From positions 1-62,323 of the IMG/VR virus record IMGVR_UViG_3300032174_000007: DNA of 62,323 nt; one strand, written 5' to 3'. The notes under the pieces are model-generated. The model was not told the origin of the DNA, searched no databases, and saw nothing but the letters and a program-made list of their open reading frames with translations. Made by a program: the position numbers and the translations under genes. Of this stretch, positions 8,266 to 61,067 are shown piece after piece. Every line of letters starts with the position of its first letter. The stretch's first letter is position 1. Source of the DNA: a virus.

Positions 8266-8312
8266 TTGGATCAAGGAACCTCTTGCGCTTGCGTCGCCAC
8301 AGAGCGGTCAGG
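8266..8312 (-). repeat. Cassette end module, unit 4
   Basis: Encodes PDRSVATQAQEVP-stop and runs into the ATG at 8265. It is the most divergent full end module. Confidence 0.8.
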
Positions 8313-12892: not shown

Positions 12893-12906
12893 GGGGATAG
12901 TCCTTT

Positions 12907-14404: not shown

Positions 14405-14631
14405 CGGAAGTCCTCGACATCGCCGCCCAACGCGACACCACACCGGATCAAAGTATCGCCACAGCGCGACAGCACTCGCTTCCACCACGGAGTTCGCTTT
14501 CGTGGACCGTAGAGCGCAAGCAAATCTTCCATTGCGCGAATCTGATCAATCAAATCAGAATTCAGTTCGCGTTCGATCAATGGCCGCATACGATCGGCAT
14601 ATTCCGCGAGAGTAATCGGGTTTGCACTCAT
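14401..14631 (-). CDS. Hypothetical protein, 76 residues
   Basis: MSANPITLAEYADRMRPLIER, then a helix and a basic WWKRVLSRCG segment. The ATG overlaps the portal stop (ATGA), so it is coupled to the portal gene. No family recognised. Confidence 0.65.
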   Translation of the reverse strand: MSANPITLAEYADRMRPLIERELNSDLIDQIRAMEDLLALYGPRKRTPWWKRVLSRCGDTLIRCGVALGGDVEDFR

Positions 14632-16457
14632 GCGCCCGCTCCCGCACCCTGCCCACCGGTCCCAAGCATCGCCTGCAGCGCGCTGATCCCACCGCCAGTA
14701 TCCGTCTGCGAGAGCGTCTGTGCAGCGGTTGCCACCGCCGGCGCCACATGGGTTGCCGCTTGCGCTGCCTTCTCCTGCTGCATCTGCTGATCGCGCGTCT
14801 GGCGGATGGCGTTCATCGTGTCCTGATCGTTCCAGTCGTCGGGCGGGAAGTCAAGCTTGTCGCCGTAGTCGCGGATCACCTTGTCCTTGTTGAAGTTGTC
14901 GAGCGTGCCCGGCATCGCCGCTTCCATGCGGCCGGCAAACGATAGCGTGCGCTCGATGCCCGCAGTGGCGGCAGCATTCTGAATCTGGGCAAGCTTGCTC
15001 ACAAACTTGATCTGGATCGGCACGTTGCGCAGCGAAGCCGGCTTGGGCGGCACGATCCCGCGCCGCGCCATGATGCTCACGATCCGATTGATGCCGTGGG
15101 CGTCCTCGCGCAGATTGCGCTCGATCACCGGCCCAAGCCGCAACAGCTTCTCGCCGCGGCGTTCGTTCAACTCCAACTCGTTCCTCGGCTGTACACCCTC
15201 CATGTCGGAGATGGCGAGGAACACATCATTGAAGAACCAGCGCTCGACCTTGTGCTCGATGTTCTCGATCACCTTCTCAAGCTCGGCCACCTGCGGATTG
15301 ACCGTGTAGGTTGGCCGCATCCCCGTGTCCTTGCCGAGGTTGGCGACGTAAGTCACGCGTCCAGGCAATATCGAGGACGGTTCATTCTTGAGCGTGGCAT
15401 CCGCCAGCATCGGCGGGCGCACCATCTTCTCGATCGCTTCGTTGAGCCTTCGCACCATGCGGTGCAGCTGCATGACATCGGGCAACGCATCCATCCCAGG
15501 CGAGCGGCCGTAAGGGTCGTTGCCGCGCGTGTTCCACAGCGGACACATGTAGGGCCGCTCATGGAAGCCGCGCACCGAGAGCGGCTGCGGGGTCGATTTC
15601 CCACGCAGCCAGTAATACTCACGATAGGCGTAGCCGCCGGGGACCACGCCGAGCGTTGGCTTCTGCCCATACATGCTCGCGGGATAGTTCGGCTCGATCG
15701 AATGCCCAACGATCGATTCGGTTTCGAGGTTGGCGCCTTTGGTGTTCCATAACTCGCCGACATCGGTGCCCTGCACGGCTTTGGGGCCGAAGCGCCCCAC
15801 GATCTGGCGCGTCGTCTGGGTGAACTCGCGGTTAAAGACGATGTTCTGCGAGCCGGCGCCGCGCCCGAGGTAATATTCGCCGGCGCATGGATTCTGGCAG
15901 TCGATGACGTAGCGCGAATCCTCGTAGATCAGCATCGGCCCGGTGCCGAAGGTCGCCTCGTCCTCGTACATCTGATGCTTGGAGTCGTAATAGTTCGAGC
16001 CGGCGAGCACGTCGTAGAACCGCTGCTCGAACTCGGCGAACCAGCGTTTGGCGGTGGTGTCGAGCTCGAAGCCCTGGATGCCGGGCTCGAACTTGACCCA
16101 CTTTTTTGTGGGCGAGGAGAGCCCATCCATCATGCCGGCGGCGCAGACGAGGATAGCCTGAGTCGGGGTCGAATCCACCACGTCCTGGTTGATCGGCAGC
16201 CCGCGCGTCATGTTGTTGGGCGTTATGAGCCAAAAATATCGTCGGGGAAGCATGTTGGCCGCGATCTCTCCCCAATGCATCCACCACGGCGTGCGCCAAT
16301 TGCGCAAGCCCAAGAGCACCTGCTCCAAGTAGGCACGCATGTCCTCCCAATCCTGGTTTGAGGTCCAGGTGCGGAATGGAATGGTGGCAGGCGTGCGCGC
16401 CAGGAGCGAGGCATCGGCGCGCTCGTAGAAAACGGAGGCTTGGTCGGTGGTGAGCAT
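14628..16457 (-). CDS. Portal (head-to-tail connector) protein
   Basis: 609 residues, the expected size. NWRTPWWMHWGEIAANMLPR, DSTPTQAILVCAAGMMDGLS, KKWVKFEP and the mid-protein YGRSPGMDALPDVMQLHRM are typical of the podovirus head-to-tail connector family (PF12236). It forms the dodecameric ring at the packaging vertex. The C-terminus is Gln/Ala/Gly-rich, as usual. It begins with TGATG overlapping the 23-residue membrane peptide. Confidence 0.95.
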   Translation of the reverse strand: MLTTDQASVFYERADASLLARTPATIPFRTWTSNQDWEDMRAYLEQVLLGLRNWRTPWWMHWGEIAANMLPRRYFWLITPNNMTRGLPINQDVVDSTPTQAILVCAAGMMDGLSSPTKKWVKFEPGIQGFELDTTAKRWFAEFEQRFYDVLAGSNYYDSKHQMYEDEATFGTGPMLIYEDSRYVIDCQNPCAGEYYLGRGAGSQNIVFNREFTQTTRQIVGRFGPKAVQGTDVGELWNTKGANLETESIVGHSIEPNYPASMYGQKPTLGVVPGGYAYREYYWLRGKSTPQPLSVRGFHERPYMCPLWNTRGNDPYGRSPGMDALPDVMQLHRMVRRLNEAIEKMVRPPMLADATLKNEPSSILPGRVTYVANLGKDTGMRPTYTVNPQVAELEKVIENIEHKVERWFFNDVFLAISDMEGVQPRNELELNERRGEKLLRLGPVIERNLREDAHGINRIVSIMARRGIVPPKPASLRNVPIQIKFVSKLAQIQNAAATAGIERTLSFAGRMEAAMPGTLDNFNKDKVIRDYGDKLDFPPDDWNDQDTMNAIRQTRDQQMQQEKAAQAATHVAPAVATAAQTLSQTDTGGGISALQAMLGTGGQGAGAGA

Positions 16458-17205: not shown

Positions 17206-17389
17206 AGGTATGGCACAGTCCCGGTGTCTGATGCTTCACGTAGGCGTCCAGTTGCGCATTGCGCAGCGCCCATTCCGGATCGGGTTGGACATCGGCTTGC
17301 TTCGGTCCCGGGCGCGAGCCGTTGGCGATGCTCAACGGCGAAGAACGTAGCGAGATGGCAACGCCGTCACTTGGTCTGGCAGGGGTCAT
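17177..17389 (-). CDS. Small ORF A after the terminase, ending in a copied terminase tail
   Basis: About 70 residues, ending TFDYDPCRSK. The frame is open across the region and its last eight residues copy the terminase end. The start is uncertain (ATG at 17389 overlaps the terminase 3' end). The segment DVQPDPEWALRNAQLDAYVK reads like protein; function unknown. Confidence 0.45.
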   Translation of the reverse strand: MTPARPSDGVAISLRSSPLSIANGSRPGPKQADVQPDPEWALRNAQLDAYVKHQTPGLCHTFDYDPCRSK

Positions 17390-18113: not shown

Positions 18114-18313
18114 CAGGCAGGTCGCCAAAATAGCGGCAGGAAGAATGGGCGATGCCAAGTTCCAGTCATCCGAGCTACTTCGCGATCACGCAGAGGCACA
18201 AACTGCCAGAATTCACCATCGATAAACCTGAATGTCTGCCCCCACGAGGTACGGCCAGACAAAGCATAGATTGGACTCCCGTCGCGCGGAGCGGTCTCAA
18301 ACGGCTCCATCAT
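18113..18313 (-). CDS. Small DUF551-like ORF splitting the terminase gene
   Basis: 66 residues (MMEPFETAPRDGSPIYALSG...). The FETAPRDG start, an aromatic middle (WGQTFRFIDGEFWQFV) and a W-x-H/R-P end are the pattern of small DUF551-type phage proteins. The start overlaps the TGA of the ATPase part (GGAGGTGAATGATGG, which also contains a good Shine-Dalgarno), and its stop overlaps the start of the nuclease part. Function unknown. Confidence 0.7.
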   Translation of the reverse strand: MMEPFETAPRDGSPIYALSGRTSWGQTFRFIDGEFWQFVPLRDREVARMTGTWHRPFFLPLFWRPA

Positions 18314-22300: not shown

Positions 22301-22448
22301 GGTAGCGGCTTTGTTGCTTGCGGTAGACTTGCTGGCCAAGGAACCGGATGGTGGAGGTGGGGGCACCGTTGAAGCAGGCGTGCAGGAGGGCGATGCAGGC
22401 GAGGTGGTATTCGGATTCGGTGATGATGGGGCGCGACGGGAAGGTCAT
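22233..22448 (-). CDS. Small hypothetical protein coupled to the methylase
   Basis: 71 residues, MTFPSRPIITESEYHLACIALLHACFNG...; the ATG overlaps the methylase stop. The last 20 residues overlap the next gene and look shadow-like. No family recognised. Confidence 0.5.
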   Translation of the reverse strand: MTFPSRPIITESEYHLACIALLHACFNGAPTSTIRFLGQQVYRKQQSRYHEVYPSHHRHREAPRPDARDGA

Positions 22449-23779
22449 GGTTGGATCACGAGAGGGGAGGGCGGGCGGAGAGGGTCATCGGTCATCAGAG
22501 GATCTTGGTGGGGCGGTTCGATTGCTACGTCGCAGAGCATGCCGCCTTCATTCTTGATGCGGCGCTCGGCCATCGCAGCATACGCGGGATTAAGCTCGAT
22601 CAGGATGGCGTTGCGCTGCAACCGATCGGCGACGAGGCCGGTCGTGCCGGCGCCGCCGAAGGGGTCGAGGACGGTGCCGCCGAAGGGGCAGCCCGCCACA
22701 ATGCAGCGCTCTGCGAGTTCCGGCGGGAAGGTTGCAAAATGCGCTTCGCTGAATGCTTGCGTCGCCATCGGCCATACCGAAAGCGGCGCGGGCTCGTAAT
22801 TTCGCAGGAAGCGCCCGTTTGCAACCTGCTCTGTTCGCTCCATTTGATCCCAGCGGTCGTTGAATCCTTGATGCCGACGGCTATGGCCTCGCTGCTTATC
22901 GATGAGCTTGCCAGCTTCGCGGCCATTGCGATGATGCGATCCGTGACCGCCTGGTCCGGTGTCCCAGCCGTCTGGCATTTTTATTCGCTTGTTGCCCACG
23001 ACTCGGCGTTTGCCGGGGTTGCCTTCGACATACGAGCCGCCGCGAAAAGTGGCGGCGTCTTCGTCCGAAGTGCGACCTTGCTTGATCGCCGCAGCGTCGA
23101 AATAATACGGCATCCTGATCCAGCGCGGACCAAGCTCGCCGGTCGTGACCATCACCACCTGCTCGGACAGATCGGGATTTGTTTCGATGGTGCCGGTATC
23201 GCGGGCGCGGAAATAATCGGAGATATTTGATTTTGCGAGCAACCAGATCTTTTCATGCGCGGCTGATGGCCGGATGGCGCCAGACGAATCGGGCATCGGA
23301 TTAGTTTTTCCCCAGATGTTTTCCGCCTTCACCCACCAGCCATCGTCTTGAAGGGCGATGGCGAGCCGATTTGGAATCATGCAGAGGTCGCCAGGCTTGA
23401 GCCGCCCACCCGCACGAACTCTGTTGCCGGCGTCGGGCCTATAGTTCTCTTTCGCTCGGCTGTTTTTGTTTCGATTGGCGTTTGCGAGCGAATATTGCAG
23501 ATTGCCATCCGTATTGAGACCGCTCGCAATCGTCGCGTAGCAATCACCGTAATTGAGCCACAGCGTTCCAGATGACGTGAGGATGCGGCGGACCTCTCGT
23601 AACAGGTCAACCATTAGATCTAGATGCTCGCCGAGCGAGGCTTCCAGCCCGATCTGTCCAGCGACACCGTAGTCCCGCAACCCCCAATATGGGGGGCTCG
23701 TCACCACGCAATGCACGGATTCCGCAGGCAGTGTGCGCAGCACATCGCGACAATCCCCGACGATGATCCGCACGCTCAT
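22445..23779 (-). CDS. Site-specific DNA methyltransferase (beta class, N4-C or N6-A)
   Basis: 444 residues. The catalytic motif IV TSPPYWGLRDYG is at residue ~28 and the AdoMet motif I DPFGGAGTTGLVADRL is at ~375, the beta-class order. SPPY(W) is more usual for N4-cytosine but N6-adenine is possible. The central ~250 residues would hold target recognition. The ATG overlaps the stop of a 17-residue leader ORF (23776-23829), so expression is probably coupled to the leader. Confidence 0.9.
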   Translation of the reverse strand: MSVRIIVGDCRDVLRTLPAESVHCVVTSPPYWGLRDYGVAGQIGLEASLGEHLDLMVDLLREVRRILTSSGTLWLNYGDCYATIASGLNTDGNLQYSLANANRNKNSRAKENYRPDAGNRVRAGGRLKPGDLCMIPNRLAIALQDDGWWVKAENIWGKTNPMPDSSGAIRPSAAHEKIWLLAKSNISDYFRARDTGTIETNPDLSEQVVMVTTGELGPRWIRMPYYFDAAAIKQGRTSDEDAATFRGGSYVEGNPGKRRVVGNKRIKMPDGWDTGPGGHGSHHRNGREAGKLIDKQRGHSRRHQGFNDRWDQMERTEQVANGRFLRNYEPAPLSVWPMATQAFSEAHFATFPPELAERCIVAGCPFGGTVLDPFGGAGTTGLVADRLQRNAILIELNPAYAAMAERRIKNEGGMLCDVAIEPPHQDPLMTDDPLRPPSPLVIQP

Positions 23780-23829
23780 GCTGAGGGCCTCTGATCACCA
23801 GTCGGGTTCCCGAGCGGGACTTGTCCCAT
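23776..23829 (-). CDS. 17-residue leader peptide before the methylase
   Basis: MGQVPLGNPTGDQRPSA-stop, entirely a cassette start module. Its TGA overlaps the methylase ATG (GCATGAGC). Nothing else fits between the DUF5131 gene and the methylase. Confidence 0.65.
   Translation of the reverse strand: MGQVPLGNPTGDQRPSA
23787..23829 (-). repeat. Cassette start module, unit 7
   Basis: Same form as at 4683-4725 and 37078-37117 (MGQVPLG(N/S)PTGDQRP). Confidence 0.9.
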
Positions 23830-24799: not shown

Positions 24800-24803
<4 letters not shown>

Positions 24804-26020
24804 TCGGCAGCCTCGCTTGCGGCTTCGGCTTCGTTTCCCCATGCCGACCAACCGGGACGTGCCGCACCGCGGCAGTTCAACTCAACCTTGGGCAACGTCG
24901 GGAACAACCGCTCAATCATCTCCGGGAAAAACTCGGGTTTCTCAGAGTGAGTATGAACGAGCGCCTCAATGAGTGAGTTTTCCTGCGTTCCGGGCGCCGG
25001 AGCCGGTATCTTTCCGCGCGTGCCAACCAGGAGAATTTCGTGGCAATTGCGGAACCAATAGCCGGTTCCAACCGCTGACACACACGTTGACGTGCCAGCT
25101 AATTGCCGTAGCTTCCGCCATATCTGGTGGCTGCAATAATCGAAACCCCAGGCCCCCATGACTGTCAGAGCGTGCGGAAGCATGGGCACTGTGGCCCACA
25201 GGAACAGCACGCAGTCGTCGGCCGCAATGCTCGGCACGTCCCGGGAGGCGATAACCTCGGTACATGAGGTCGGATAGTGGTTGTCGGCAGCGCGATCCAT
25301 GCCAGTCTCGCGCGACCAGGGCTCGAAACGCCATTCGGGATCCGCGAGGATCACGCCGAATTTCTGCTGCGGCAGCGCACACTGAATGCCGCCCAGAACG
25401 CGCTCGCGGATGGCGCGGCGTTCCTTCTTCTCCTGCTGGCGCTCGGCGTGGGCCTCCTTGAGAACCGTTTTGTCGCCATCGATCGTGGCAACTGCAATCC
25501 GCTTGGCTTTGGCGATCTTGGCCTCTTGGGCGTCGAACGGAAGGGCGGCGAGTTGCTGCCAGCGGGAGGATTGAGTGCGGCTGATGTCGAGGTCGGAAAG
25601 TGTAGCAGCGTGCGACTCTTTCGGCCGCCCCTTTGGCCTCGCATCCCGCTCCGCAAGCTCGCGCAGGATTTCGCCGGATCGGATTTCGGCACGCAGTTTG
25701 ATCTCGGTCGCGCGGTCAATCAGTTCACGGTCCTTTGCCTGTTGAGCGTAGGTCTTGAGCGCAACTGCCTTGTCGCGGATGTCCTTGACCTCATCGATAG
25801 CCACGGCTTGGGCGAGGGCCTGGCGGGCGGTTTCGTACCATCCGAATTGGTTGGCTTGAACCGGGACGAGGGCGGTCTTGCGCTCCGCCTTCTCGATCGC
25901 GCGCCGCACCTTGTCCTTGTCCCAATTCATCGCCTTGGCGATGCGGATATAGCCCCAGGAGGGGTGCTCGGCCTTGAGGCGGAGGGCGCGGGTTGATTGA
26001 TTTGAATCAAGGCTTGGCAT
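24800..26020 (-). CDS. MT-A70-type adenine methyltransferase with helical N-terminus
   Basis: 406 residues. Residues 1-230 are helical and charged ([19 protein letters not shown] looks like an HTH). The catalytic domain begins [20 protein letters not shown], where the usual DPPW is DPEW; then [35 protein letters not shown], and the C-terminal [19 protein letters not shown]. It would put N6-methyl on adenine of DNA. About a dozen residues seem inserted before GTGYWFRN. The start lies inside a cassette end module with no ribosome site. Confidence 0.85.
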
Positions 26021-26067
26021 GTGGGGGTGGGAGCTCTGAGCGGTCAGGGACCGCTTCTGATTATCGG
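25990..26067 (-). repeat. Cassette unit 8: end module plus start-module remnant
   Basis: 26000-26045 is the end module (CTGACCGCTCAGAGC...AAGCCTTGATTCAAATC) read in the LTAQ frame; 26052-26067 resembles the ACTGGTGATCAGAGGC core of a start module. Confidence 0.7.
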
Positions 26068-26522
26068 TGGGCAATCCGCGCATGATGCGAGCAATAGCTG
26101 CCATCCCGCATCGCGGCCCCGCAGAACACGAAATCCGCCTCTTTGGGGTTGCCTATCGGCCAGCGGCAGTGCTCGGGCTCAAGCGCAAATAGGGGGACGC
26201 CGACGGCCGGGACCTCAACCGGTAGGTCGATCACTCGCTCGGTAGGCAGCATGCCCGAATCGGGGTCGATTGGGCTGCAGGTCGGGAAACGCGACCCGGC
26301 CACAAAGCGATCGGGCCGCGGCGGCTTGTTGGCTTGCTTCAACTCCCGCTTGTGGGCACGGGCGACCTTGACCTGCTCCATGGTTTGGCAGATGCCGAGA
26401 CGGTGCAGCTTGCCGATGACGGCGCTGCGGGAAATGTTGAGCCTTTTGGCGACCTCGGCGCATGACAGCCTGCGGGCGTTGAGGGCTTTCAGCTGGTCGA
26501 TCAGTTCCTGCGTCCACACCAT
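26061..26522 (-). CDS. GcrA-like cell-cycle regulator
   Basis: 153 residues, GGAGG seven bases before the ATG. The N-terminal [47 protein letters not shown] and the C-terminal [18 protein letters not shown]...[11 protein letters not shown] are both GcrA signatures. GcrA is an alphaproteobacterial sigma70 partner whose action depends on GANTC adenine methylation. A phage copy next to an adenine methylase could redirect host or phage promoters. Confidence 0.9.
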
Positions 26523-36993: not shown

Positions 36994-37011
36994 CCGAGCG
37001 GCTCCAAGATT

Positions 37012-37117
37012 TGGATCAAGGCTTTGCTTGCGGTTGCCTCAACTCGGAACGGTCACCAAGCGCCCCGGATGAGGGCCTCTGATCACCAGTCGGGTTCCCG
37101 AGCGGAACTTGTCCCAT
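37012..37117 (-). repeat. Complete minimal cassette, unit 9
   Basis: Start module 37078-37117 and end module 37012-37054. The shortest unit in which both module peptides are in one frame. Confidence 0.9.
37016..37117 (-). CDS. 33-residue cassette ORF
   Basis: MGQVPLGNPTGDQRP, SSGALG, DRSELRQPQAKP-stop: start-module peptide, six residues, end-module peptide. It suggests that the modules themselves are the unit and the middle is optional. Confidence 0.6.
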   Translation of the reverse strand: MGQVPLGNPTGDQRPSSGALGDRSELRQPQAKP

Positions 37118-47983: not shown

Positions 47984-48817
47984 ATGGCTCGACCAAAATC
48001 AGGCTACAAGAACGCCGCCGGCTTGCCGGTGCCGGGAACCGGCGACATCAATGGCCGCTACATGAACCGCGAGCGCCTGCTCTATTGGGCATTCAACCGC
48101 GGCAAGCAGGGCCTGCCCAAACTCTACGACAACTCCGCGCTCGACATCGGCACGGCCGTCCACACCATGGCCGAGCTCGATCTTCGCGGCGACCCGGAAA
48201 AGGAAATCCTCTACTACCTCGAAGCCACGCTGACCTATGCCGAGGATCGCGAGAAGGCGGCGGCTTCCTTCAAGACTTTCCGCGCTTGGCGCTCGCAGTT
48301 CCATGTGGACGCCTACAAGCAGGAAATCTCGCTCGTCTCCGAGAAGCTCCAATTCGGCGGCACGCTCGACACCGTGGCCTTCATCCGCAGCGGCAAGGGC
48401 CTGCTCGAATTCAAGACTTCATCGGAAGTCTATGAGGATCACCTGTTACAGATGGCCGCCTACGGCATCCTGTGGGCCGAGAACAATCCGACCGAGCCGC
48501 TCGATGCCGGCTATCACTTGATCCTGCTGCCGAAGGATGGCTCCAAGCCGGTCCATCGGGAATTCACGCATGAGCAGCTGCACCCATTCCGGCAGAAGTT
48601 CTGGCTCTATCGGCAAGCGTACAACTACGAAGCGCCATGCAATGATCCCAAGGTTCTGGCCGGATCGAAGGTCGCGCCCTCACCGAAGCCAAAGGGGCGT
48701 GTCGTGCCGGTGCAGATGGCCATTCCCGACTGCCGGCTTGATCCACCGGCCGTGCAACTCTCCATGGGCGAGCTGCTACGCTCCTATGGACACATCAAGG
48801 AAGGAGTCGGGGCATGA
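47984..48817 (+). CDS. RecB-like PD-(D/E)XK nuclease
   Basis: 277 residues. The active-site pattern is GGTLDTVAFIRSGKGLLEFKTS (Asp of GTLD, then E-x-K) followed by HLLQMAAYGILW, the motif IV-like Q of RecB/Cas4-type nucleases. A YMNRERLLYWAFNRG start and a LDIGTAVHTMAELDL helix fit the family. It could act in recombination or DNA end processing. It is near the small protein at 49062. Confidence 0.82.
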   Translation: MARPKSGYKNAAGLPVPGTGDINGRYMNRERLLYWAFNRGKQGLPKLYDNSALDIGTAVHTMAELDLRGDPEKEILYYLEATLTYAEDREKAAASFKTFRAWRSQFHVDAYKQEISLVSEKLQFGGTLDTVAFIRSGKGLLEFKTSSEVYEDHLLQMAAYGILWAENNPTEPLDAGYHLILLPKDGSKPVHREFTHEQLHPFRQKFWLYRQAYNYEAPCNDPKVLAGSKVAPSPKPKGRVVPVQMAIPDCRLDPPAVQLSMGELLRSYGHIKEGVGA

Positions 48818-49463: not shown

Positions 49464-52400
49464 TCAATGCACCGCCGTCGCCTTCCCCTGCAGCGGCGCC
49501 CGCTTCACCTCGATCGCCTTCCTGATGATGCTTTCCGGCCCGCTCGCCGACTGCATCATGATCATGTTGGCCGCCCGCTCATGCGCGGCCGTGATCTCCT
49601 TGTGCATCTCGATCGCCTTCAAGGCATCCGGCATCTGCTGGAATCCCGGGACGGCGACCAGCCGGTTGAGCGCCATCTTGGCCATCTTTCCCGCCACCCG
49701 CGCGTAATCGTGGTATTGCTGATCGGTCAGGGGCACGCCCCTGATCTTGCGCGCAAGCCTGCCCACGCTCAGATGGATCGCGTCCATCGCCTTGACCACC
49801 GGATCGTTGGCGTAGCTCGGCAGCGGGCCGGCGGTCGGGATCGGTTCGCCGAACATGTCGCGGCGGGGGAATAGGCCTTCCGAGACGAAGGGAATTTTCG
49901 CTCGCGCGGAATCGAAGATGGTGCGCACCTCCCTTTGGTACGGATCAACAACCCGGGCAACCTGGCCCAAGCCGACCGAGTACGGAATCCAATTGGTCAC
50001 GAAGTTGCGGATATATTGGCCACCGAACTCCTCCGGGTGGAACACGGCATCGAGCATATCCTTGGCGCCGCGCATCCAGGTTTCGTTGAGGATCGACCGG
50101 GTGATCCCTTGCATGAACGCGACAGCGAGCTTATCGCCATCTTCCTCACCCCATCCGGCGGCAGTCTCGTACATGTTGGCGGCAAAGCCCATCAACATTC
50201 CAAGGCTTCCGAGGTGGGCGTAGGGAATACTGAGCCCCCCAATCTGGATGGTGTTCGGCTTGTGGTTCAAGAGCCAAACCTGCCGTTGCCTTGGATCGGT
50301 CGGCCCGTCGCTGGTCATCAGCCCTTCGGCCATCATCAGCACGCTCGCCCCCATCAGGCCCATACCCGCCGCAACCTTCCCCATCTGGATGTCGAAGTCG
50401 GCACCGCCGCGTCCTAGATTGGCGCGAAACTCCTTATCAAAGATGCCGATCGGCGTGCGCTCGATGATGGCGTTGCGCGTGATCTGGCTGCCGATCTTCA
50501 TGAATGGCACAATGATCTTGGCAAGGAGGTTGTTATTGGTGAAACGCACTAGTCCAGCCCATTTGCTGTGGTAGTCGGTCGGCGCCATGTAGAGTTCTTT
50601 GAGCGCGTCACGGCTGGCGCTCGCCATCATGGCATCGGTCGGGTGTGCCGTGAGTTGCGCGATTCGGCTCGGCATGTCGGCGGCAGCCTCCCCCATTGCC
50701 TGGCGGTAGGCGAGACCTTGAATGTTCTGCTCATAGCGCAGCGCTGCGAAGAACGAATGGATAGCCGCCACACCCTTGACCGGAAGCCCGATCGCGGCCC
50801 CGATCGCGCCTGGGATCGGATTGATGTTGTGCTCGGAGAACTGCACGGTCGGTGCCCGCTGCCCCGGCAGGTTTATGGTCTGGCCGCTGTGCCAGGCGTC
50901 TACCCCAGCCCGCAAACCATCCACACTGCCCTTGAGGAGTCCGTAGAGCTGCGCGCCGGCTTCCCCGAGATAGACCCGCTTGCCAGCGGTATCGTAACCC
51001 AGGGCCTCGCGTATAGCGCCCGAGGCCGCCGAATAGGGTATCTCGACCAATGGGGTGAAAACCGCGTTCAAAGCGTTGCCAACCGCATAGCGCATGTGCG
51101 TGATCGGCCCGGAAATGAGTGCATTGACGTAGTAGAAAATAACCGCCCGCTTGATCTTTCCTCCCGCCGTATCGGCAATCAATCGCGATACGTTTGATGG
51201 TGTCGGAAGATGCTGCCCGTACTGCGCCATCTCCTTGATCTGAAACAGCGTCCGCCCGGTATTCTCCTGCAGGAACCGCGAGAGGTCGGCTGCCTCCTTC
51301 TGGCCGCCGATGATCAGGTTGAGAGCGCGGCCGGCACGTCCCCATTCGGCCGTGGCCTGCGCGACCTTGCCCTGGATCATCTCGTGGCGGGCAATCGCTG
51401 CGGCGAGCGCCATCAGGTCGTGCTCGTCCCCGGTTGCCGCCTGCTTCATCAGGTCGCGCACGTCGGTCGCCGACTGGATCAGCAGCCGCTTGGCGACGAT
51501 GATTTCCTGCTGGTTGAAGGCGTCCCCGATCTTCTTCAGATCCAGGAATGCCGGGTCCATGCCCATGGCGTCGGCGAGGTCGAGTGCCTGCCCGTCCGTG
51601 ATGACGTGGCGGCGCTCGGCCATGAAGCCGCCGGTACGCTCGGCTGCTTCTCGGATTGCGATGTCGAAGTCGTCCGGACCATTGAGCTTGTCGAGCCGGA
51701 TGTTGCCGGCCTTGTCGGTCGCGCCGGAATCCGAAGGGCCAAATCTTACGTTGGGGTCTGTTGGGACTTCGCTTCGAGCGACCTTTGATGCACTAGCGCC
51801 TTCGCCCTCCCCCTCACCTCCGCCCGCGCCGAGCGCTCCAGGTTGCGCAGCAACTCCCGCTTCTCCACCGACAGGTCCGGGCGCATTGCCATCACGGTCA
51901 GATTGCGCACCTCCTGGCGGGCCGCCTGGAGCTCCTTCTCCTGCTGGTTTGCGTCCGGTATCGGCAAGGCGGTTTTCCTCTTCTTCGGGCGCATGGGTGG
52001 CAGCAATCCTATCACGCTCGGACTGCGCCGTCACCATGGCGGGGTAAACTTCCTGCGGCGGCAATCGTTCCGCCTCGGCTTCATGAATGTCGGCAAAACC
52101 TTGGGCGGTTGGCCGCTCGGGCGTGATAATCGCCTCATGCTCGCGCGAGGCCAGAAGGCGACGATACACGCCCCGCATTTCGTCGCTGATGCCAACGAAT
52201 TCCTTGCCGGCTCCAGTCTCCCTGGCTTCCTTGATCAGATTGTCGATGGTCTTGTAGATTTCCAGGAGCCAATCGCGGAACTTGGCGAAGACCTTCGCCA
52301 TCGCCTGACTCGGGGCGCGGCCTTCCATCATAAATATTTCAAAGCCGCGGGCAAAACTCTCATGATGGCGCTCGCGGATGTCCTCGGCTTTATCGACCTT

Positions 52401-55400
52401 GAACCAATCCAGCACCGTCTTGGCGTCAGCTTTGAGATCGGGCGGTGCGTCAGGATCCCGCGCATCGTCCATCAGTTCTTCGAGCCATTTGTGGGCGGGT
52501 TCATGCAGGAGGGTGGAGGCGTTGGCGTCCCTGAAATAGGTGATTATCGAGGTGCCATCGTTAAGGAAGCGGATTTTGCCGCGCTTGGTCTGGAACAGGG
52601 GGAAGCCTTGGGAGGTGGCGGCCTCGCGGAGTTCGGGCGTGATGTCGAGGGTGTGGACTGGGGCAGTTCCTTCCATACCGACCGTTTCATCGAAGGCATA
52701 GCTACCGCCGGGATATTCACTTTCCACAAGATGTTGCGCGTAGCTTTCATCGTGAATGCCGCGCTCGACAATCTGCCCGGCGCGATCGCGCACAACGAAT
52801 GGAACATCGATGTCACGCTGATCGAAAGTGGGAACACGGGCCTCACCAACCTTCGCCCCAAACTTCTTGCCCAGCTTGCTCCCCGCCGCCGGCAGTATCT
52901 TGTCGTAGAAGCCCTTCATGCCTTCGCCGCCGACCTTGAGGTCGAGGCCGGAAAGTTCGCGATGAATGCCGATCTTTTGACCGGCGAGTTCGCGGTTGCG
53001 GTTGATCTCCGCAGCTTTGTTGTTGAAGTATCGCTCGGCGTATTCCCTGGCCTCTGCCTCGCTCTGGACGGTGCCCTTGCCGATATCTACTTGGCGGCCA
53101 TCCACATTTCGGACGATGTACTGATGCTCGGTCTGCTCGACCGTCAGATACTCCTTGTAGACGTGAGGCAGCATCTTGATCTCGGTCGGCTTCTGGTCGA
53201 GCAGCTTCTGCGCTACGTCCTTGCCGATGAGATCGGGCAATTCCTCAGCGGTCGCTTTGCGGCGCACGACCACCTCGCCGCTATGATCCTTGGCCTGGAA
53301 GTCACCCGTTGTCTCGTTCCAGCGGACAGATTGAATCTGCTTGCTCAGGTCATACCGTTCCGCATTGGTATCCCCGCTGTCCCAGGAGAGACGGTCGTAG
53401 CCGTTCTCGGCGGCGTAGCGGATCATCCTTTTCAGTGCCAACTCGGGCCACGTGGTCTTGAAGGGGGCGTCGGGGACGCCTCCATGCGTAGCGCGATCAC
53501 GCTCGCGCATAAGTTCGCCATGCCGTCGGTTTAGATCAGGATGCTTGAGCCATGCGTCATGCCAATCGCCGGGTGAATTGGCATTTATCGACGGCTCGCG
53601 GTGCAACAACTCGGTGCGCGTATCGTCTACGTCGCGGTCGATCTCCGCGACCGATCGGCCTTCACCAGCGTAACCCTGCTTCCTCCCCTTCTGGTGCCAG
53701 TCGCTCTGGATCTCTGCCAGATGCAGCGTCTTCTTTCCGTCGATGACGCGATCATCAAATCTCACATGGGCGAGGACGTTGGGCTCGTCCCAGTGGGAGG
53801 ATTTGAATTGATCCTCTCGTGGGCGCTCCATCAGCCGATAGAGTTCATCGCGTTCCTCTTGGGTTGCGTGATCAACGAAGTTGCCGCCACGTGGTTCGTA
53901 TTTTTCCGCGAGCGCATCGCGAAACCGCTGTGCTTCACTCGGTCCCGCTGGCAGCGTCAGCAGCAGCTCGCGATAGTTCTCACCGCCGGGGAGCCTATAG
54001 GTCTCGAATTTCGTGCTGCCTTGCGTGTTCCAGCCGGACGGTCCGGTCTGGCGATGTTCGACCTCGCGCACCTCGATCGCGTTCGCGCGCACGTAATCCG
54101 CGATCTCCTGCTTGGTCACTGAGCCTTTCTGCTCCTTGAGCCAATCCGGCAGGCCGAGCCAGTCCATTTCCTCACTTTTGACGCCGGGCGTGTTCTTGAG
54201 CGTGGCGAGCCATTGCTGCGGGGAGGCTTTTTCTTGGCGTGCAGATTCGACCGCGCGGGCGACAGCGGAGTAGGACCACGGCACTTGCCGGGCCTGGAAC
54301 AGCTCGCGTTGCTTGGCCGCATCCCCGAACAACCCGATGTCCATCGGCTTCTGCTCGGCCTTGGGCTTCAATGCTTGATCGGCGCGCCGCTGCGCCAGCT
54401 CCGCATCGCTGATCCGCTCGCCGCCGGGGAGAACTTGCTGGCCCTCCGCCTCTCTTTCAGCAAATAATCCAGGCTCGACCGGCCTGCGTGCCGCTTGCGC
54501 AAACTCCGGTTCCTCCATCACCGCCCGTTCATAGGCCACGCCCGGGTCGGTCACACCCTCGCGGTCCATGATCTCGACCGCGCGATCCTTGATCTTCTCC
54601 GACACGCTTGCCGGGTCGATGCCGGCCGCCGCCAAGTGGGTCTCAAGCTTCCCCATCATCCGGTGCAGCTCTTCGTCCACGTCGATCGCCTGCGCCGGCT
54701 CGAAGCCATGGATAAACTGCTTTTCCCCGCGCGCCTCCTTGTCGATCAGGTCCAAGAGCTCGACGTGCCCGACCTTGGCCTCGGTGCCTTCGATGTCGGC
54801 GCGGTCGAACATGTGGCCGCTTTCCTTCAGCGCCTCCACGGCATGATCCAAGTCCATACCGCTCTTGCGCAGCAGCGGCCCAAAGCCGCCACCGATCATC
54901 GGGTTTTTGCCGAGTATTTGCCGCAACTCTGGCGTCGGCTTAAGACCACCCAACGCGGCCAATTGCTCAAACAGCGAACGCTCAGCCTCCGGCTTGAGCG
55001 TGCGCCTGCCACCGCGGGCTCGGGCTTCCGCCCCCGGTGCCCGCGCCCCTGTGCCCCGGTCGGCTGCGAGGTCGCGGTAGCGTGTACCTTCGCCACGGTA
55101 ACGGAGAGGATCAGCCGCATAGAGTTCGGCGGCCGTGCCTTTCTTGCCCTCAAAGCGGAGCGCCCGGTCGGCGTACCGCTGCGCATTGATGGCGGCGGCG
55201 GCTTGCGCCTGCTCGGCCGGAATGCCTATGGCCACAAGCTTCCTCTCCTCCGCGTCTGCAATGGTCGTGAACATCGCTGGCGTGGCTATGGACTGGCCTT
55301 GCGGCAGTTGGGGTGCCGCTGGTGCCCCAGGAAGGACTGGTGTACCAGCGGCCCCGCCAGCCGGCGCCCGGGCGCTCTCCAGCGTTCCAGCACCGGCTGC

Positions 55401-57047
55401 GGATGGAATTTCAGCTTTGCTCACGGACTTGTGATGATCGACGGCGGCGTTGGGATCGACGTGAGGATCGGGCGGCGGATTCTTGACCGTCTCGTGCTCG
55501 ATCTTGGCGAGGTAGCCGTCGATTTCCTCGGTGTAGGCTTTCCAGGAGACGCCATCGGCTTCGACTGCGGCGCGCTCGGCCGGGGTGGCGCGGTTGGTAT
55601 GGGCGGCGTCGTAAGGCATTCCAGCCACCATGGCGGCGCGCTCATCCTGTTCATGGATGGTCAGGTATTTGTGCAGGTTGGCGGGATTGCCGTCCTTGTC
55701 CTTGAGGATAGGCGAGAATTCCGGGATGCGCGGGTCGATATAGGTGACGCCAGGGGTATCCTTGCTGGCAACCGCGCCGGAGCGCACGTCATGGGTGGTA
55801 TCGACGGCCCCGACCGCGCCCGGCTCCTGTTTCACGTGAAACAATGTGGGCGCGATCGTCCGCTCGGCGTCCTTGTAGGTCTTGGCCACCTCGGGGGCGA
55901 GCTCGGCCAGCCGCTTGTCGATGCCGGCGAGGTTGGCCTCGATCTCCTGGCGGGTTGCGGCCTTCTCAGGCGTCAGGGCGGGTTCCGCGGCGAGGTCGTT
56001 CGCCCAATTGCGGAATGTGGCCTGCCGCTCCTTGAGCGCGTCGTATTCGCCGAATAGGGGAAAGTCGAGCTGGCGGGCGACGGAGTGGATATCGGCGACG
56101 GCCGGAGTGACGGGCGCGGGAGCCGGCGGGATGGGTGCCCCTTCCTGGGGTGTGATGCCGGCCTTCTCCTGTGCCTCCCGCTCGGCCTGCAACTGCTTGA
56201 TGGCCATCAGCGCCCGATCCACCTCGGGCACATCTGCGGTCTGGGCGGTGCCTTTCCAGGCCGCCTCGCCGCCCGGGCCGATGATCTTGAGATAGCGCGC
56301 CGCCTCGATCTGATGCGGCCCGGGTGCCTCCAGCATGGCCCCCTGGAGCATGATGTTGATGTCTTGGGCGAGCCGGCCGGGGGCGCCTCCTGCCAAGCCA
56401 GCCTGATCCGCTAGTGCCGCAATCTCGCCGGCCGCACCGCCGATCACCATGCCCGGGGCGCGGATGGCGCTCTCGGCTCCGGCCAGCAGCGCCTTGGCGC
56501 GCGGGCCTAAATATCTGAGGATCGGAAACCGCTCGATATCCGCTGGCGTAATCCCCGGCGGCTTTTCGCCGAAGCCTTCCTTGGCGGCTTCCCAGGTGGT
56601 CTCAAGGAACCTGCGGGCCTGCTCCTGCTGCTCGGGTGAAGCCGCGTTGGTGAACGGATGCACATGCGGCCACAGCAGGACTTGGCTTGCGACCTTGGCG
56701 AAGCTGTTGCGGCTTGTCTCGTAGTCCTTCCAGGCCCCGGAGAGTTTCATGAAGTCTCTGGTTTCATCGGAAGGTGGTGGGGCGCCCCAATTATCCTTGG
56801 CACCTTGGCCGAAGGCGTCGAGCACGCGGGCTTGCGGGGCGACGGCGGCGTTTCCGAAGATCATATCGGCGATCGGGGAGGCACCGTGCAGCGGGCGCGG
56901 AGTGGATGGTGCGGGCTTGTCGGGGAACAGCGTCTCCACCTCGGGGAGGGGCTTGTCGGGAAAGAGGTCGTTAACGTCCGGTAGGCCGGCGGCGGCCTGA
57001 GGCGGCGCGGCAGGCGACGGAGAGGTTGAGAGGGTGGGGTCGGCCAT
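49464..57047 (-). CDS. Giant polyvalent ejection protein (gp16 position)
   Basis: 2527 residues. N-terminal ~400 residues are linker and ejection-type helices. The middle has large polyvalent protein-associated segments (WSYSAVARAVESARQEKASP, WLGLPDWLKEQKGSVTKQEI, LAEIQSDWHQKGRKQGYAG, SWDSGDTNAERYDLSKQI) and a zincin-like HEPAH motif near residue 1513 with a downstream ERHHESFARGFE helix. The C-terminal ~800 residues (VIFYYVNALISGPITHMRYA, FMKIGSQITRNAIIERTPIG) are hydrophobic and gp16-like. It is ejected with the DNA in relatives and may protect it. The ATG follows TTGATCCAA with no ribosome site. Confidence 0.85.
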   Translation of the reverse strand: MADPTLSTSPSPAAPPQAAAGLPDVNDLFPDKPLPEVETLFPDKPAPSTPRPLHGASPIADMIFGNAAVAPQARVLDAFGQGAKDNWGAPPPSDETRDFMKLSGAWKDYETSRNSFAKVASQVLLWPHVHPFTNAASPEQQEQARRFLETTWEAAKEGFGEKPPGITPADIERFPILRYLGPRAKALLAGAESAIRAPGMVIGGAAGEIAALADQAGLAGGAPGRLAQDINIMLQGAMLEAPGPHQIEAARYLKIIGPGGEAAWKGTAQTADVPEVDRALMAIKQLQAEREAQEKAGITPQEGAPIPPAPAPVTPAVADIHSVARQLDFPLFGEYDALKERQATFRNWANDLAAEPALTPEKAATRQEIEANLAGIDKRLAELAPEVAKTYKDAERTIAPTLFHVKQEPGAVGAVDTTHDVRSGAVASKDTPGVTYIDPRIPEFSPILKDKDGNPANLHKYLTIHEQDERAAMVAGMPYDAAHTNRATPAERAAVEADGVSWKAYTEEIDGYLAKIEHETVKNPPPDPHVDPNAAVDHHKSVSKAEIPSAAGAGTLESARAPAGGAAGTPVLPGAPAAPQLPQGQSIATPAMFTTIADAEERKLVAIGIPAEQAQAAAAINAQRYADRALRFEGKKGTAAELYAADPLRYRGEGTRYRDLAADRGTGARAPGAEARARGGRRTLKPEAERSLFEQLAALGGLKPTPELRQILGKNPMIGGGFGPLLRKSGMDLDHAVEALKESGHMFDRADIEGTEAKVGHVELLDLIDKEARGEKQFIHGFEPAQAIDVDEELHRMMGKLETHLAAAGIDPASVSEKIKDRAVEIMDREGVTDPGVAYERAVMEEPEFAQAARRPVEPGLFAEREAEGQQVLPGGERISDAELAQRRADQALKPKAEQKPMDIGLFGDAAKQRELFQARQVPWSYSAVARAVESARQEKASPQQWLATLKNTPGVKSEEMDWLGLPDWLKEQKGSVTKQEIADYVRANAIEVREVEHRQTGPSGWNTQGSTKFETYRLPGGENYRELLLTLPAGPSEAQRFRDALAEKYEPRGGNFVDHATQEERDELYRLMERPREDQFKSSHWDEPNVLAHVRFDDRVIDGKKTLHLAEIQSDWHQKGRKQGYAGEGRSVAEIDRDVDDTRTELLHREPSINANSPGDWHDAWLKHPDLNRRHGELMRERDRATHGGVPDAPFKTTWPELALKRMIRYAAENGYDRLSWDSGDTNAERYDLSKQIQSVRWNETTGDFQAKDHSGEVVVRRKATAEELPDLIGKDVAQKLLDQKPTEIKMLPHVYKEYLTVEQTEHQYIVRNVDGRQVDIGKGTVQSEAEAREYAERYFNNKAAEINRNRELAGQKIGIHRELSGLDLKVGGEGMKGFYDKILPAAGSKLGKKFGAKVGEARVPTFDQRDIDVPFVVRDRAGQIVERGIHDESYAQHLVESEYPGGSYAFDETVGMEGTAPVHTLDITPELREAATSQGFPLFQTKRGKIRFLNDGTSIITYFRDANASTLLHEPAHKWLEELMDDARDPDAPPDLKADAKTVLDWFKVDKAEDIRERHHESFARGFEIFMMEGRAPSQAMAKVFAKFRDWLLEIYKTIDNLIKEARETGAGKEFVGISDEMRGVYRRLLASREHEAIITPERPTAQGFADIHEAEAERLPPQEVYPAMVTAQSERDRIAATHAPEEEENRLADTGRKPAGEGAPGGPPGGAQSDRDGNAPGPVGGEAGVAAQPGALGAGGGEGEGEGASASKVARSEVPTDPNVRFGPSDSGATDKAGNIRLDKLNGPDDFDIAIREAAERTGGFMAERRHVITDGQALDLADAMGMDPAFLDLKKIGDAFNQQEIIVAKRLLIQSATDVRDLMKQAATGDEHDLMALAAAIARHEMIQGKVAQATAEWGRAGRALNLIIGGQKEAADLSRFLQENTGRTLFQIKEMAQYGQHLPTPSNVSRLIADTAGGKIKRAVIFYYVNALISGPITHMRYAVGNALNAVFTPLVEIPYSAASGAIREALGYDTAGKRVYLGEAGAQLYGLLKGSVDGLRAGVDAWHSGQTINLPGQRAPTVQFSEHNINPIPGAIGAAIGLPVKGVAAIHSFFAALRYEQNIQGLAYRQAMGEAAADMPSRIAQLTAHPTDAMMASASRDALKELYMAPTDYHSKWAGLVRFTNNNLLAKIIVPFMKIGSQITRNAIIERTPIGIFDKEFRANLGRGGADFDIQMGKVAAGMGLMGASVLMMAEGLMTSDGPTDPRQRQVWLLNHKPNTIQIGGLSIPYAHLGSLGMLMGFAANMYETAAGWGEEDGDKLAVAFMQGITRSILNETWMRGAKDMLDAVFHPEEFGGQYIRNFVTNWIPYSVGLGQVARVVDPYQREVRTIFDSARAKIPFVSEGLFPRRDMFGEPIPTAGPLPSYANDPVVKAMDAIHLSVGRLARKIRGVPLTDQQYHDYARVAGKMAKMALNRLVAVPGFQQMPDALKAIEMHKEITAAHERAANMIMMQSASGPESIIRKAIEVKRAPLQGKATAVH
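55828..55843. other. Perfect parS site inside the giant gene
   Basis: TGTTTCACGTGAAACA, a full 16-bp palindrome identical to the canonical bacterial parS bound by ParB. On the coding strand it is read as part of LFHVKQE around residue 402. The only such site seen in the window. Confidence 0.88.
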
Positions 57048-57094
57048 TTGGATCAAGGCTTGGCTTGTGGGTGGATCAACTCTGAGCGGTCAGG
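57048..57094 (-). repeat. Cassette end module, unit 10
   Basis: CTGACCGCTCAGAGTTG...AAGCCTTGATCCAAATG, the ATG being that of the giant gene. Confidence 0.9.
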
Positions 57095-57145
57095 GATCGT
57101 TGTGGGGACGATTGCAGAAGTGTCGTGCAGTTCAACGTCGCTCAA
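57053..57145 (-). CDS. 30-residue cassette ORF (TTG start)
   Basis: SDVELHDTSAIVPTTIPDRS...KP-stop. The TTG is inside the end of the previous gene; PDRSE is in the usual frame. It is likely to deliver ribosomes to the giant gene. Confidence 0.4.
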   Translation of the reverse strand: MSDVELHDTSAIVPTTIPDRSELIHPQAKP

Positions 57146-57789: not shown

Positions 57790-57840
57790 TTGGTCTCCTT
57801 TGTAACTTCCGCTCTATTCCCGTATCGTCCCCAGCCTCCG

Positions 57841-57882
57841 GCCTCTGATCACCAGTCAGGCTTCCAGAGCGCTCATTGTCCC
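57841..57882 (-). repeat. Cassette start module, unit 10 (frame lost)
   Basis: GGGACAATGAGCGCTCTGG...GACTGGTGATCAGAGGC; it lacks an in-frame ATG for the TGDQRP reading, and the other frame ends after six codons. Confidence 0.85.
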
Positions 57883-57888
57883 AAAATC

Positions 57889-60492
57889 CTACTGGCTCAT
57901 CGGCAATTGAGGTGTCGGTGCTGGCGGCGGCGGTCCCCATTTCGCCCATCCCCTGGCAACAGCAATCTCCTGCGCCTGTGCCTTGCTGACTTGTCCAGCA
58001 TGATAGGCATTCACAAGACTTGGAAGATCGCGCACGGTCTTGGGATCAAATGCTGGCTGTGCTCCCGGTTGCGTAGCCCCCGGCGCGCCCCACCATTGCG
58101 ATGGCCGCAGGAAGGACGGAATGCCGAGGCTGAATCCGCTCGATGGCGCCGCAGCTGGCGGTTGATCCTGCATCACGTCGGAAAACCACGTAGCCGGATC
58201 GCGCACGAAGCTTGGAATGGCCTTGCCCAGATAATCCGGGCTGTCGGGATTGAGCAGTTGTGCCGGTGACTTGCCGGCCCGCTTGCCGGCCTCGTAGGCC
58301 GGGAAGAAATTGGCCTGAAACTTGAGAAACTGTTCCTCGCCTTTTGGATCCTTGAGGCCAATACCCTCATCCTGCCCGGTGATCTGCTTCCTCGCATTGA
58401 GCAGGAACTGCTTGCGCATGTCGGATTCCGCTTCGCCACCCGGCAACTGCTTGTCCTGCAATTCCTTCGCAAGCTCCTTTGCCCCCGCGAGCGTGAGGTC
58501 ACCGCCCGGCCCGGCGCGCCGGTAAATCTGAGTCGCGTCGGTGATCCGCGCCTCATCGCCAGGTGGAGCGTGAATAGCCGTGTACGCGCCCCAGAAGCCC
58601 TTGCCATAGGTCGCGGCCTCTTTCTCCACATCGGATCCGGAGTGCTTCTCGGCCAAGTCCCACAGGATAGTCCGCGATTCCGGCGTTAACGACTGATCGT
58701 TGGCGATCTGGTCGATGATGCCTTTCATGTCGCCCTTCATCATGCGGGTGACATAGCCGTCGCGGGCTTGCTCGCTGGCTTCCTTGCGCGCCTTGGCGGT
58801 CGCATCGGCGGCGACTTGTGCGGCGGTCACGGCCTGGTTGATGACGGTCAGCGCCCGCTCGCGCGCCTCTGGGGTGGCGTTTTCCCAATCGGGATGGTTC
58901 ATGACCGTCTGGTAGGCGGATTGCTTGATGCCTTGTGCGGTTGTCGTTGGGACGGGGGGCTGGCCCGCTCCTGTCGGCGGCGTGATCACATCGCCACCCG
59001 TCGCGACGACTGGGGTCGCCGCCATCGCGCCCTGCTCGCCGCCCATCTTGGTTTGATAGATGCCGACGAGTTGCCGCGAGGTCACAAAGTCCACTGCGGC
59101 CTTCTGCGTGGCCGAAAGGTCGCTCCAGCGCCGCGCAACAGTGAGACCTAAGCGCGCTTTATCCTGATCGGGAATGTTGCCCCAGATCGCTTGGCGGCTC
59201 CAATCGAGGCCCTTCTGGCGGCCCTCGCCGGTCGTCGCCATGTTCTGCGCCGCGGAGCCACCAGGGTTTGCAAGATGCGCATCGTAACCGGCGGCACCCT
59301 GCTGATGGATCATGTAGATGTCGGTCGGCGTGGCAGGGCGACCGTGGGCCGCTTGGAACGCTTGCTGCTCGGCCTGTAGTTTCTTCGCCGCCGCACGCGC
59401 ATTGTCGAGCGGGTTGTGGATGTCGCCGCCGCCGTAGCGGTCGAATTCAGATTGCGAGAGTTGGAACAGTCCCTTGTAGCTTCCGGTATCGGATTCAAAG
59501 CCGGGACGGCCGCCGCTTTCGATGTGGGCAATCTGCGTGAGGAGCCGCGCATCAAGCCCGCTTTCCGAGGCCGCTTGGCTGATCGCCTGTTGGACCGGCC
59601 CACTCATCTTCGGTGCGCCGGCTGCCATCCCTCCCGCAGCCGTCTGGCCGATCGCCCACTGGCCCATAGCATCGCCGACGCGCTGCGTCTTGTGGGCCGC
59701 AAGCATCCCCTCGATCTGCACGGCAGAGGTAGGGTCGATCTGACCTTGATACTTCTTGAACAAGTCCTCTGCCACACCGTGAGGATCGCCCTGCGCAAGG
59801 CTCGTTCTGATCGCCTCTTTCACATAGACGCCGGTGAACTTGTCGGTTCTCTGTTTGATGACGGCAGCCCCATCCGGCGTAGTGTGATCGAAGCCTTCGG
59901 CTTCTGCCTGGTTAACAACCTCCATCCGGCCGTTGGTGATGTGATCGAAGAAACCTTGCGGGTCCGTCTGGCTCCAGGAGAACAACGCCTGACTGCCGCG
60001 GCTTTCCACGTTGGCGGCGGCGACAGTGCGAAAATATTGCTTCTGCGCATCAAGTGCGCGCTCGCTCCCGTACCACAGATAACGATCCGTTTGGCTCGAC
60101 AGCGCTGGCGCCAGCCGCTGCTTCTCCTGCAAGCTCGGCGCCAGCGCCATGTATTTTGCATTGAGGGCGGCGAGATCATCCTTGAGCTTCGGCAGGGCGA
60201 GCATTCGCGCCTGTCCTTCGAGCGCGGTGAAGTTGGTGAACAGGTCGGTTGCTTCTCTGCCGTGTGAGGTCAAAAGTTGTGAGGAGTGAACATCATTTAT
60301 ACGCTCTTGCGCCTGTGTCGCGTAGTCGATCGCCGCAACGCCGGCCTTCTCCAATCCAGTGCCGAATTCCTTCTCGGCCTGCGCTGGAAAGCCGCCGAAC
60401 ATCTCGGGCGAGGTGCGGATATTCTCGAAGTCCCCACCAGGGGCACCCGTGGGGTTTACGGTTGGGATTTGGGCGTCGAGGATGTGAGGCAT
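57889..60492 (-). CDS. Internal virion protein with lytic transglycosylase domain
   Basis: 867 residues. The SLT domain is at about 310-420: ESGLDARLLTQIAHIESGGR (catalytic Glu in HIESGG), SYKGLFQLSQSEFDRYGG and TDIYMIHQQGAAGYDAHL. In T7 the enzyme is on gp16; here it is on the preceding gene. It opens peptidoglycan during DNA entry. The first 25 codons (MPHILDAQIPTVNPTGAPGG) occur a second time at 60723-60802. Confidence 0.9.
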   Translation of the reverse strand: MPHILDAQIPTVNPTGAPGGDFENIRTSPEMFGGFPAQAEKEFGTGLEKAGVAAIDYATQAQERINDVHSSQLLTSHGREATDLFTNFTALEGQARMLALPKLKDDLAALNAKYMALAPSLQEKQRLAPALSSQTDRYLWYGSERALDAQKQYFRTVAAANVESRGSQALFSWSQTDPQGFFDHITNGRMEVVNQAEAEGFDHTTPDGAAVIKQRTDKFTGVYVKEAIRTSLAQGDPHGVAEDLFKKYQGQIDPTSAVQIEGMLAAHKTQRVGDAMGQWAIGQTAAGGMAAGAPKMSGPVQQAISQAASESGLDARLLTQIAHIESGGRPGFESDTGSYKGLFQLSQSEFDRYGGGDIHNPLDNARAAAKKLQAEQQAFQAAHGRPATPTDIYMIHQQGAAGYDAHLANPGGSAAQNMATTGEGRQKGLDWSRQAIWGNIPDQDKARLGLTVARRWSDLSATQKAAVDFVTSRQLVGIYQTKMGGEQGAMAATPVVATGGDVITPPTGAGQPPVPTTTAQGIKQSAYQTVMNHPDWENATPEARERALTVINQAVTAAQVAADATAKARKEASEQARDGYVTRMMKGDMKGIIDQIANDQSLTPESRTILWDLAEKHSGSDVEKEAATYGKGFWGAYTAIHAPPGDEARITDATQIYRRAGPGGDLTLAGAKELAKELQDKQLPGGEAESDMRKQFLLNARKQITGQDEGIGLKDPKGEEQFLKFQANFFPAYEAGKRAGKSPAQLLNPDSPDYLGKAIPSFVRDPATWFSDVMQDQPPAAAPSSGFSLGIPSFLRPSQWWGAPGATQPGAQPAFDPKTVRDLPSLVNAYHAGQVSKAQAQEIAVARGWAKWGPPPPAPTPQLPMSQ

Positions 60493-60719: not shown

Positions 60720-60802
60720 TTCATAATCTGCTCGAAGTCCCCGCCGGGGGCACCGGCGGGAGCTACTGTCGGGAGTTGCGCGTCGAGGATGTGGGGAGCC
60801 AT
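60716..60802 (-). CDS. Duplicated head of the transglycosylase gene (28 residues)
   Basis: MAPHILDAQLPTVAPAGAPG... then DFEQIMK-stop, about 70% identical in protein to the true start. It is preceded by the end module of unit 11. Probably a relic, still able to couple ribosomes to the inserted ORF. Confidence 0.6.
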   Translation of the reverse strand: MAPHILDAQLPTVAPAGAPGGDFEQIMK

Positions 60803-60808
60803 GTTAGA

Positions 60809-60855
60809 TTTGGATCAAGGCTTGGCTTGCGTGTTTGTTTGCTCTGAGCGGTCAG
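60809..60855 (-). repeat. Cassette end module, unit 11
   Basis: CTGACCGCTCAGAGCAAACAAAC...AAGCCTTGATCCAAATC; very like the one at 12907-12950. Confidence 0.9.
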
Positions 60856-61067
60856 GAAACATCTGTATTTTGAGGCAATTCTGGCAGCCTCATCCAATGT
60901 GTAGGCTCAAAACAAACTGTGTCGCTTGAATGTGCGTGACGCCATCCAGAAACAACACCTAGGCGGTAGGCTGTCACACAAAATTTCTCTCCCAAACAAG
61001 CAAGTAAAACAGTTTTACAAAACGGCGCCGTCTCGATTTCTTGCCAGCCTGTCTCAGCAAAGAGCAT
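60852..61067 (-). CDS. DUF551-like cassette ORF
   Basis: 71 residues. TGWQEIETAPFCKTVLLACL, VVSGWRHAHSSD and FEPTHWMRLPELP are the full DUF551 pattern. The start module upstream has lost its ATG (ATA), and the ATG of TGDRM is used. Lower GC than the virion genes. Confidence 0.75.
   Translation of the reverse strand: MLFAETGWQEIETAPFCKTVLLACLGEKFCVTAYRLGVVSGWRHAHSSDTVCFEPTHWMRLPELPQNTDVS

Follow-up and report, generated by a model that had tools for sequence, protein, structure and literature searches.

The question raised by this locus is why a phage should carry a bacterial centromere sequence without the proteins that act on it. The DNA analysed is the IMG/VR virus record IMGVR_UViG_3300032174_000007, a contig of 62,323 bp that we refer to in its full length as the window. 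At positions 55828-55843 it contains TGTTTCACGTGAAACA, a perfect 16-bp palindrome with the sequence of parS, the predicted loading site of the partition protein ParB. Judged from its sequence, this site is best read as a host-type centromere element on a phage that encodes neither ParB nor ParA.

The parS site and its phage

The palindrome is present in a single copy, and no second parS-like site was found at up to 3 mismatches anywhere in the window. Given the base composition of the window, the exact sequence is expected by chance 4e-6 times. An earlier, sequence-only reading of this DNA had named the site as a canonical parS, which the exact and sole match bears out, and had put the chance expectation at about 0.00001, near our recomputed figure. 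It had also located the site inside a giant gene, as we find. In this open reading frame (ORF) the parS codons, TTG TTT CAC GTG AAA CAG, read LFHVKQ from about residue 402, and two of them are minority codons in this GC-rich phage, TTT accounting for 26% of the Phe and AAA for 24% of the Lys codons.

The published alphaproteobacterial parS is TGTTTCACGTGAAACA in Hyphomonas and t/cGTTt/cCACGTGAAAca in Caulobacter (PMC7022226). The window site matches this consensus exactly, that is, it has the parS sequence of the ParB presumed to be resident in the host. The host itself is most likely alphaproteobacterial, because the phage encodes a homologue of GcrA, an alphaproteobacterial cell-cycle regulator (PMC9437464), and because the nearest chromosomal relatives of its portal protein, at no more than 50% identity, are found in Rhizobiales, Reyranella, Rhizobium, Aminobacter and Agrobacterium contigs. 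A search of bacterial genomes with the single portal sequence gave no match, and a search with the portal alignment returned distant relatives alone, mostly alphaproteobacterial and desulfovibrio. The GcrA homologue also points to a coupling with the cell cycle; GcrA was detected above the cut-off in 7 of 43 relatives of the window phage as well.

Searches of the window record gave no match to ParB_N (PF02195), to the ParA-type AAA_31 domain (PF13614) or to tyrosine integrases (PF00589), and serine recombinases were not searched for. The record may miss a little sequence, because it is classed as 'linear' and no end repeat was detected in it. The absence of parA, parB and integrase genes reported by the sequence-only reading therefore holds for these three families.

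Occurrence of parS among phages

Analysis of 50,697 cultured-phage records, which are not independent of one another, revealed an exact parS in 286 of them, whereas three control palindromes were found in 0, 0 and 5 records, the last five belonging to one Erwinia lineage. A general effect of palindromes or of base composition was rejected, since the control palindromes are rare. The carriers include Listeria Pecentumvirus, Microbacterium, Arthrobacter, Gordonia, phi29-like Bacillus, Lactobacillus, Enterococcus, Roseobacter/Ruegeria, Vibrio, Butyrivibrio, Clavibacter and Spiroplasma phages as well as ssDNA phages. There were no enterobacterial phages with the exact site among the matches listed, in which the ten commonest names make up 258 of the 286 records. 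Of the cultured-phage records, 58 contain the variant TGTTCCACGTGGAACA, which is commonest in Pseudomonas phages (17), with 10 Klebsiella records, mostly of giant RaK2-like phages, as an unexplained exception; the variant TGTTTCACGTGGAACA occurs in 147, led by Pseudomonas, Arthrobacter and phi29-like phages.

In these phages the sites sit in dispensable DNA. Microbacterium phages of the Quhwah and Metamorphoo types keep parS in the linker of one gene at a shifting position, as TTTC/GAAA, TTCC/GAAA or TTCC/GGAA variants, and several of them, PiperSansNom included, have no site in that gene. The phi29 genome has four consensus copies, TGTTTCACGTGGAACA, and gene 15 of its relative B103 contains a perfect parS, read NVSRET, where phi29 has a variant at the homologous place, read NVSRGT. 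Two intergenic sites persist in the Gordonia phages Kampe and Woes, although the DNA around them can no longer be aligned; in these phages parS sits in the middle of longer inverted repeats, with arms that are not alike from one site to another (L250 2001; L331 2001, 2422). In the Pseudomonas phiPsa phages, with TGTTTCACGTGGAACA, and in the Vibrio phi 3 phages, parS lies within the terminal repeats. The inovirus bajarodino virus 6 (5.9 kb) has six perfect sites (L550 635, 662, 1414, 2857, 4096 and 5628), mostly directly 3' of gene ends, and a chronic filamentous phage of this kind would benefit from partition.

A similar analysis of IMG/VR gave at least 120 matches to the exact parS, and 1 and 33 to the controls. 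The dinucleotide CG follows parS in 7 of 145 sampled sites (about 5%), and a query extended by CG still returned at least 120 matches, so that the total should exceed about 2,500 sites. Among 146 sampled sites, 93 (64%) are intergenic, compared with 13.6% of the DNA as assigned by the gene caller (p ~1e-36, one site per locus). Most of the sites within genes are translated as VSRET and lie in linkers or at the ends of proteins. Of 50 parS-bearing records, 46 have no ParB_N. Bacterial contamination was rejected as the main cause, since cultured phages are equally enriched and these 46 carriers have no ParB.

To find relatives of the window phage we used the portal protein, which identified 11 relatives at 63-69% identity and 80 in all with a portal alignment; the giant protein, tried as a probe, yielded just one 4.4-kb fragment. 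The giant protein is shared by two relatives of 64 kb, G005 and G007 (36-47% identity over the longer matches). Each carries one parS at a place different from that in the window. In G005 a single perfect site at 48455-48470 lies in another gene, where it encodes VSRET within a proline-rich linker; the product looks helix-turn-helix-like by inspection and has no Pfam or PHROG match. G007 has CGTTCCACGTGAAACA at 195-210, beside another gene, in agreement with the Caulobacter consensus (PMC7022226). Altogether the GTTYCACGTGRAAC core is present in four of 50 relative records (G005, G007, G018 and G046), compared with about 0.02 expected, and the backwards control is found in none of the 50 at up to one mismatch. 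As a separate observation, the contig ends of G007 (64,286 bp) overlap by 163 near-identical bp (L150 1-163, L153 9125-9287), which suggests that this genome is complete.

Possible roles of a phage-borne parS

We consider it very probable that the window parS is a genuine ParB target under selection. After entry of the DNA, host ParB would load at the site and slide outward as a CTP-bound clamp, so that the unintegrated phage DNA would bear a small partition complex. The most likely benefit is that host ParA, possibly with SMC, would then position this DNA with the nucleoid and hand it on to the daughter cells, or to a cell type that is favoured, during delayed lysis, much as phi29 reaches the spore by means of Spo0J. 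The best-supported reading, in view of the phi29 sites and Spo0J, the parS copies of the mobile element SGI1 and the ParB coating of a parS placed on phage lambda, is that host ParB loads on the window phage DNA and endows it with a partition complex, most likely of use during delayed lysis. Whether the role of the site is indeed the positioning or segregation of unintegrated DNA is, in our judgement, evenly balanced. The sequence-only reading had likewise suggested that host ParB could act on the phage DNA, and this part is strengthened by the signs of an alphaproteobacterial host, the parS match and the enrichment among phages. The connection that it drew with the ejection gene looks incidental, because carriers place parS in many genes and mostly between genes.

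Several observations weigh against a selected ParB target with a role in segregation. The parS codons of the window fall in a gapped linker that cannot be aligned with G005 and G007; the peptide of both differs there and the position is not conserved. Strict conservation at the window site was tested and not found, and the conservation at synonymous positions in relatives whose lack the sequence-only reading had taken as refuting the site is, taken literally, absent at this position. Among the 13 relatives with 55 kb or more, nine lack a site even when 2 mismatches are allowed, and in G013, where the homologue of the G007 site stands at the end of the same gene, the CACGTG core has been broken by a change that leaves VSRET unaltered. 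The window phage shows no recognised lysogeny or plasmid genes. Many parS-bearing phages are reported to be strictly virulent, and segregation would be of no obvious benefit to them. The failed conservation test is not decisive, because G005 and G007 each keep one parS elsewhere. The unconserved position, the relatives without a site and the lost core of G013 do indicate that the site is dispensable in many lineages, and parS is a recurrent but dispensable trait of this phage family.

A coding coincidence in the window, with phage parS being real elsewhere, would agree with the location of the site inside a gene, with the lack of conservation of this position in relatives and with its absence from most of the wider family. 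We hold it to be quite improbable in view of the 4e-6 sites expected per window, the choice of the rarer Phe and Lys codons, the single parS kept elsewhere by the two relatives that share the giant gene, and the recurrence of linker-embedded parS in other phages. That selection comes instead from another host protein which recognises this palindrome seems very remote, since the variants follow the known consensus positions of parS (T/C and A/G around CACGTG) and since phages of Pseudomonas are the commonest carriers of the Pseudomonas-type variant.

Other uses of ParB binding were also weighed. As a decoy, replicating phage DNA would multiply parS and titrate host ParB off the chromosomal centromere, disturbing segregation or division of the host to the advantage of the phage. 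This would suit the many carriers that are reported to be virulent, with one to few sites each; ParB is essential in Caulobacter and Hyphomonas (PMC7022226), and extra SGI1 parS copies destabilise the IncC helper plasmid (PMC10954446). However, a single site per genome would be effective only after replication, too late for many infections, and the filamentous bajarodino virus 6, which is expected not to kill its host, has six sites, so that we regard a decoy as unlikely. Alternatively, spreading ParB or ParB-loaded SMC could alter the local chromatin, silencing nearby genes, compacting the genome, helping DNA entry or shielding the DNA from defence systems. ParB coats an engineered parS on lambda shortly after the DNA is injected (PMC13190303), ParB is reported to repress promoters near parS in P. 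aeruginosa (PMC5521831), and the terminal-repeat sites of the phiPsa and Vibrio phi 3 phages would fit such a role. It is nevertheless doubtful, since the carriers show no constant position of parS relative to promoters, ends or particular genes. The decoy and chromatin roles are conceivable above all for virulent carriers.

Beyond this locus, we think it rather likely that use of the host partition system through a phage-borne parS is a general strategy in phages of ParB-bearing bacteria, virulent ones included, which extends over tailed phages, microviruses and inoviruses, with sites selected in linkers and gaps and matched to the host ParB. Such use is known for phi29 and spores, and our data suggest that it is widespread: host-type parS occurs in hundreds of cultured-phage records and at thousands of metagenomic sites, mostly without ParB. 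If functional, these sites would account for the persistence of phages in dividing cells without integration or partition genes of their own. Sister phages with and without parS occur naturally and give an easy handle for a test. A note of caution is that parS matches in contigs are no marker of chromosomal origin regions. This broad pattern is of more interest than the single window site.

Other features of the window and comparison with known systems

The features of the window are listed below. The giant gene is probably an ejection gene, its product showing a weak resemblance to 'internal virion protein D' proteins. The portal is of the epsilon15 type, and its top matches among cultured phages have 30-33% identity.

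Features of the window (positions in the 62,323-bp record)
Feature	Position	Strand	Basis
parS, predicted loading site of host ParB	55828..55843	.	sequence match, alphaproteobacterial consensus (PMC7022226)
Giant ORF, 2,527 aa, probable internal virion/ejection protein	49464..57047	-	weak similarity and neighbouring transglycosylase protein
Ejection-type protein with SLT transglycosylase domain, adjoining the giant gene	57889..60492	-	PF01464
GcrA cell-cycle regulator homologue	26061..26522	-	PF07750, E 5.9e-32
Portal, head-to-tail connecting protein; probe for relatives	14628..16457	-	PF12236, E 1.8e-104

Other genes encode a large terminase, a GP7-type major capsid protein, a NusG-like protein and an IS1595-type transposase. 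The terminase is apparently split, with an N-terminal ATPase part at 18310-19161 and a nuclease part at 17367-18113 in different frames, which appears to be due to a frameshift, an insertion or an assembly error (17367-19161). Candidate DNA methyltransferases at 3667-4827, 22445-23779 and 24800-26104 show N6/N4 and MT-A70 matches and one weak match of the C5 kind; the C5 frame, which runs across other ORFs, is possibly spurious. A 57-nt element, GATTTGGATCAAGGCTT...CTCTGAGCGGTCAGG, is dispersed in seven copies (159-215, 8257-8313, 12898-12954, 25993-26049, 37002-37058, 57039-57095 and 60801-60857), several of them directly upstream of minus-strand gene starts, including that of the giant gene; they probably serve as promoters or leaders of the phage. 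Another repeat, GGCCTCTGATCACCAGTCGG...GACTTGTCCCAT, is likewise dispersed, at mostly intergenic places (4669-4725, 23773-23829, 37061-37117 and 57834-57865).

Within the library searched, the literature on phage-borne parS gave no further case beyond phi29 and SGI1. In CtrA-dependent lytic deferment, alphaproteobacterial phages are tuned to the cell cycle of the host through CtrA-binding promoters, and parS and ParB are absent from that account (PMC9437464); the window phage resembles them in encoding GcrA. Phage-plasmids of the P1 type also have unintegrated DNA partitioned by ParB on parS, but they encode their own ParABS, whereas the window record has no PF02195 or PF13614 match. Accordingly, the record shows neither the ParA and ParB of a phage-plasmid nor the tyrosine integrase (PF00589) of an integrating temperate phage, serine recombinases lying outside the search.

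The likeness is greater to phi29 and SGI1. In sporulating cells the virulent phi29 suspends lysis and its genome is trapped in the spore through Spo0J, the ParB of the host (Meijer et al. 2005, cited in PMC9437464). Like the window phage it carries consensus parS and lacks its own ParB, but it has several sites and a sporulating Gram-positive host, whereas the window phage has one site, a probable alphaproteobacterial host and a GcrA homologue, with no spore involved. SGI1 carries copies of the parS of the IncC helper plasmid, which bind the ParB of that plasmid, stabilise SGI1 and expel the helper (PMC10954446). It is thus a mobile element that has parS-like sites but not the parAB to go with them, and it relies on a resident ParB for its own stability; there the ParB is that of a helper plasmid and the parS a different one, while the window phage would use the ParB of the host chromosome on a virus genome. 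With these two systems the window phage shares a parS that matches the resident ParB, the lack of ParB and ParA of its own, and, although most relatives are without the site, an occurrence among relatives above chance.
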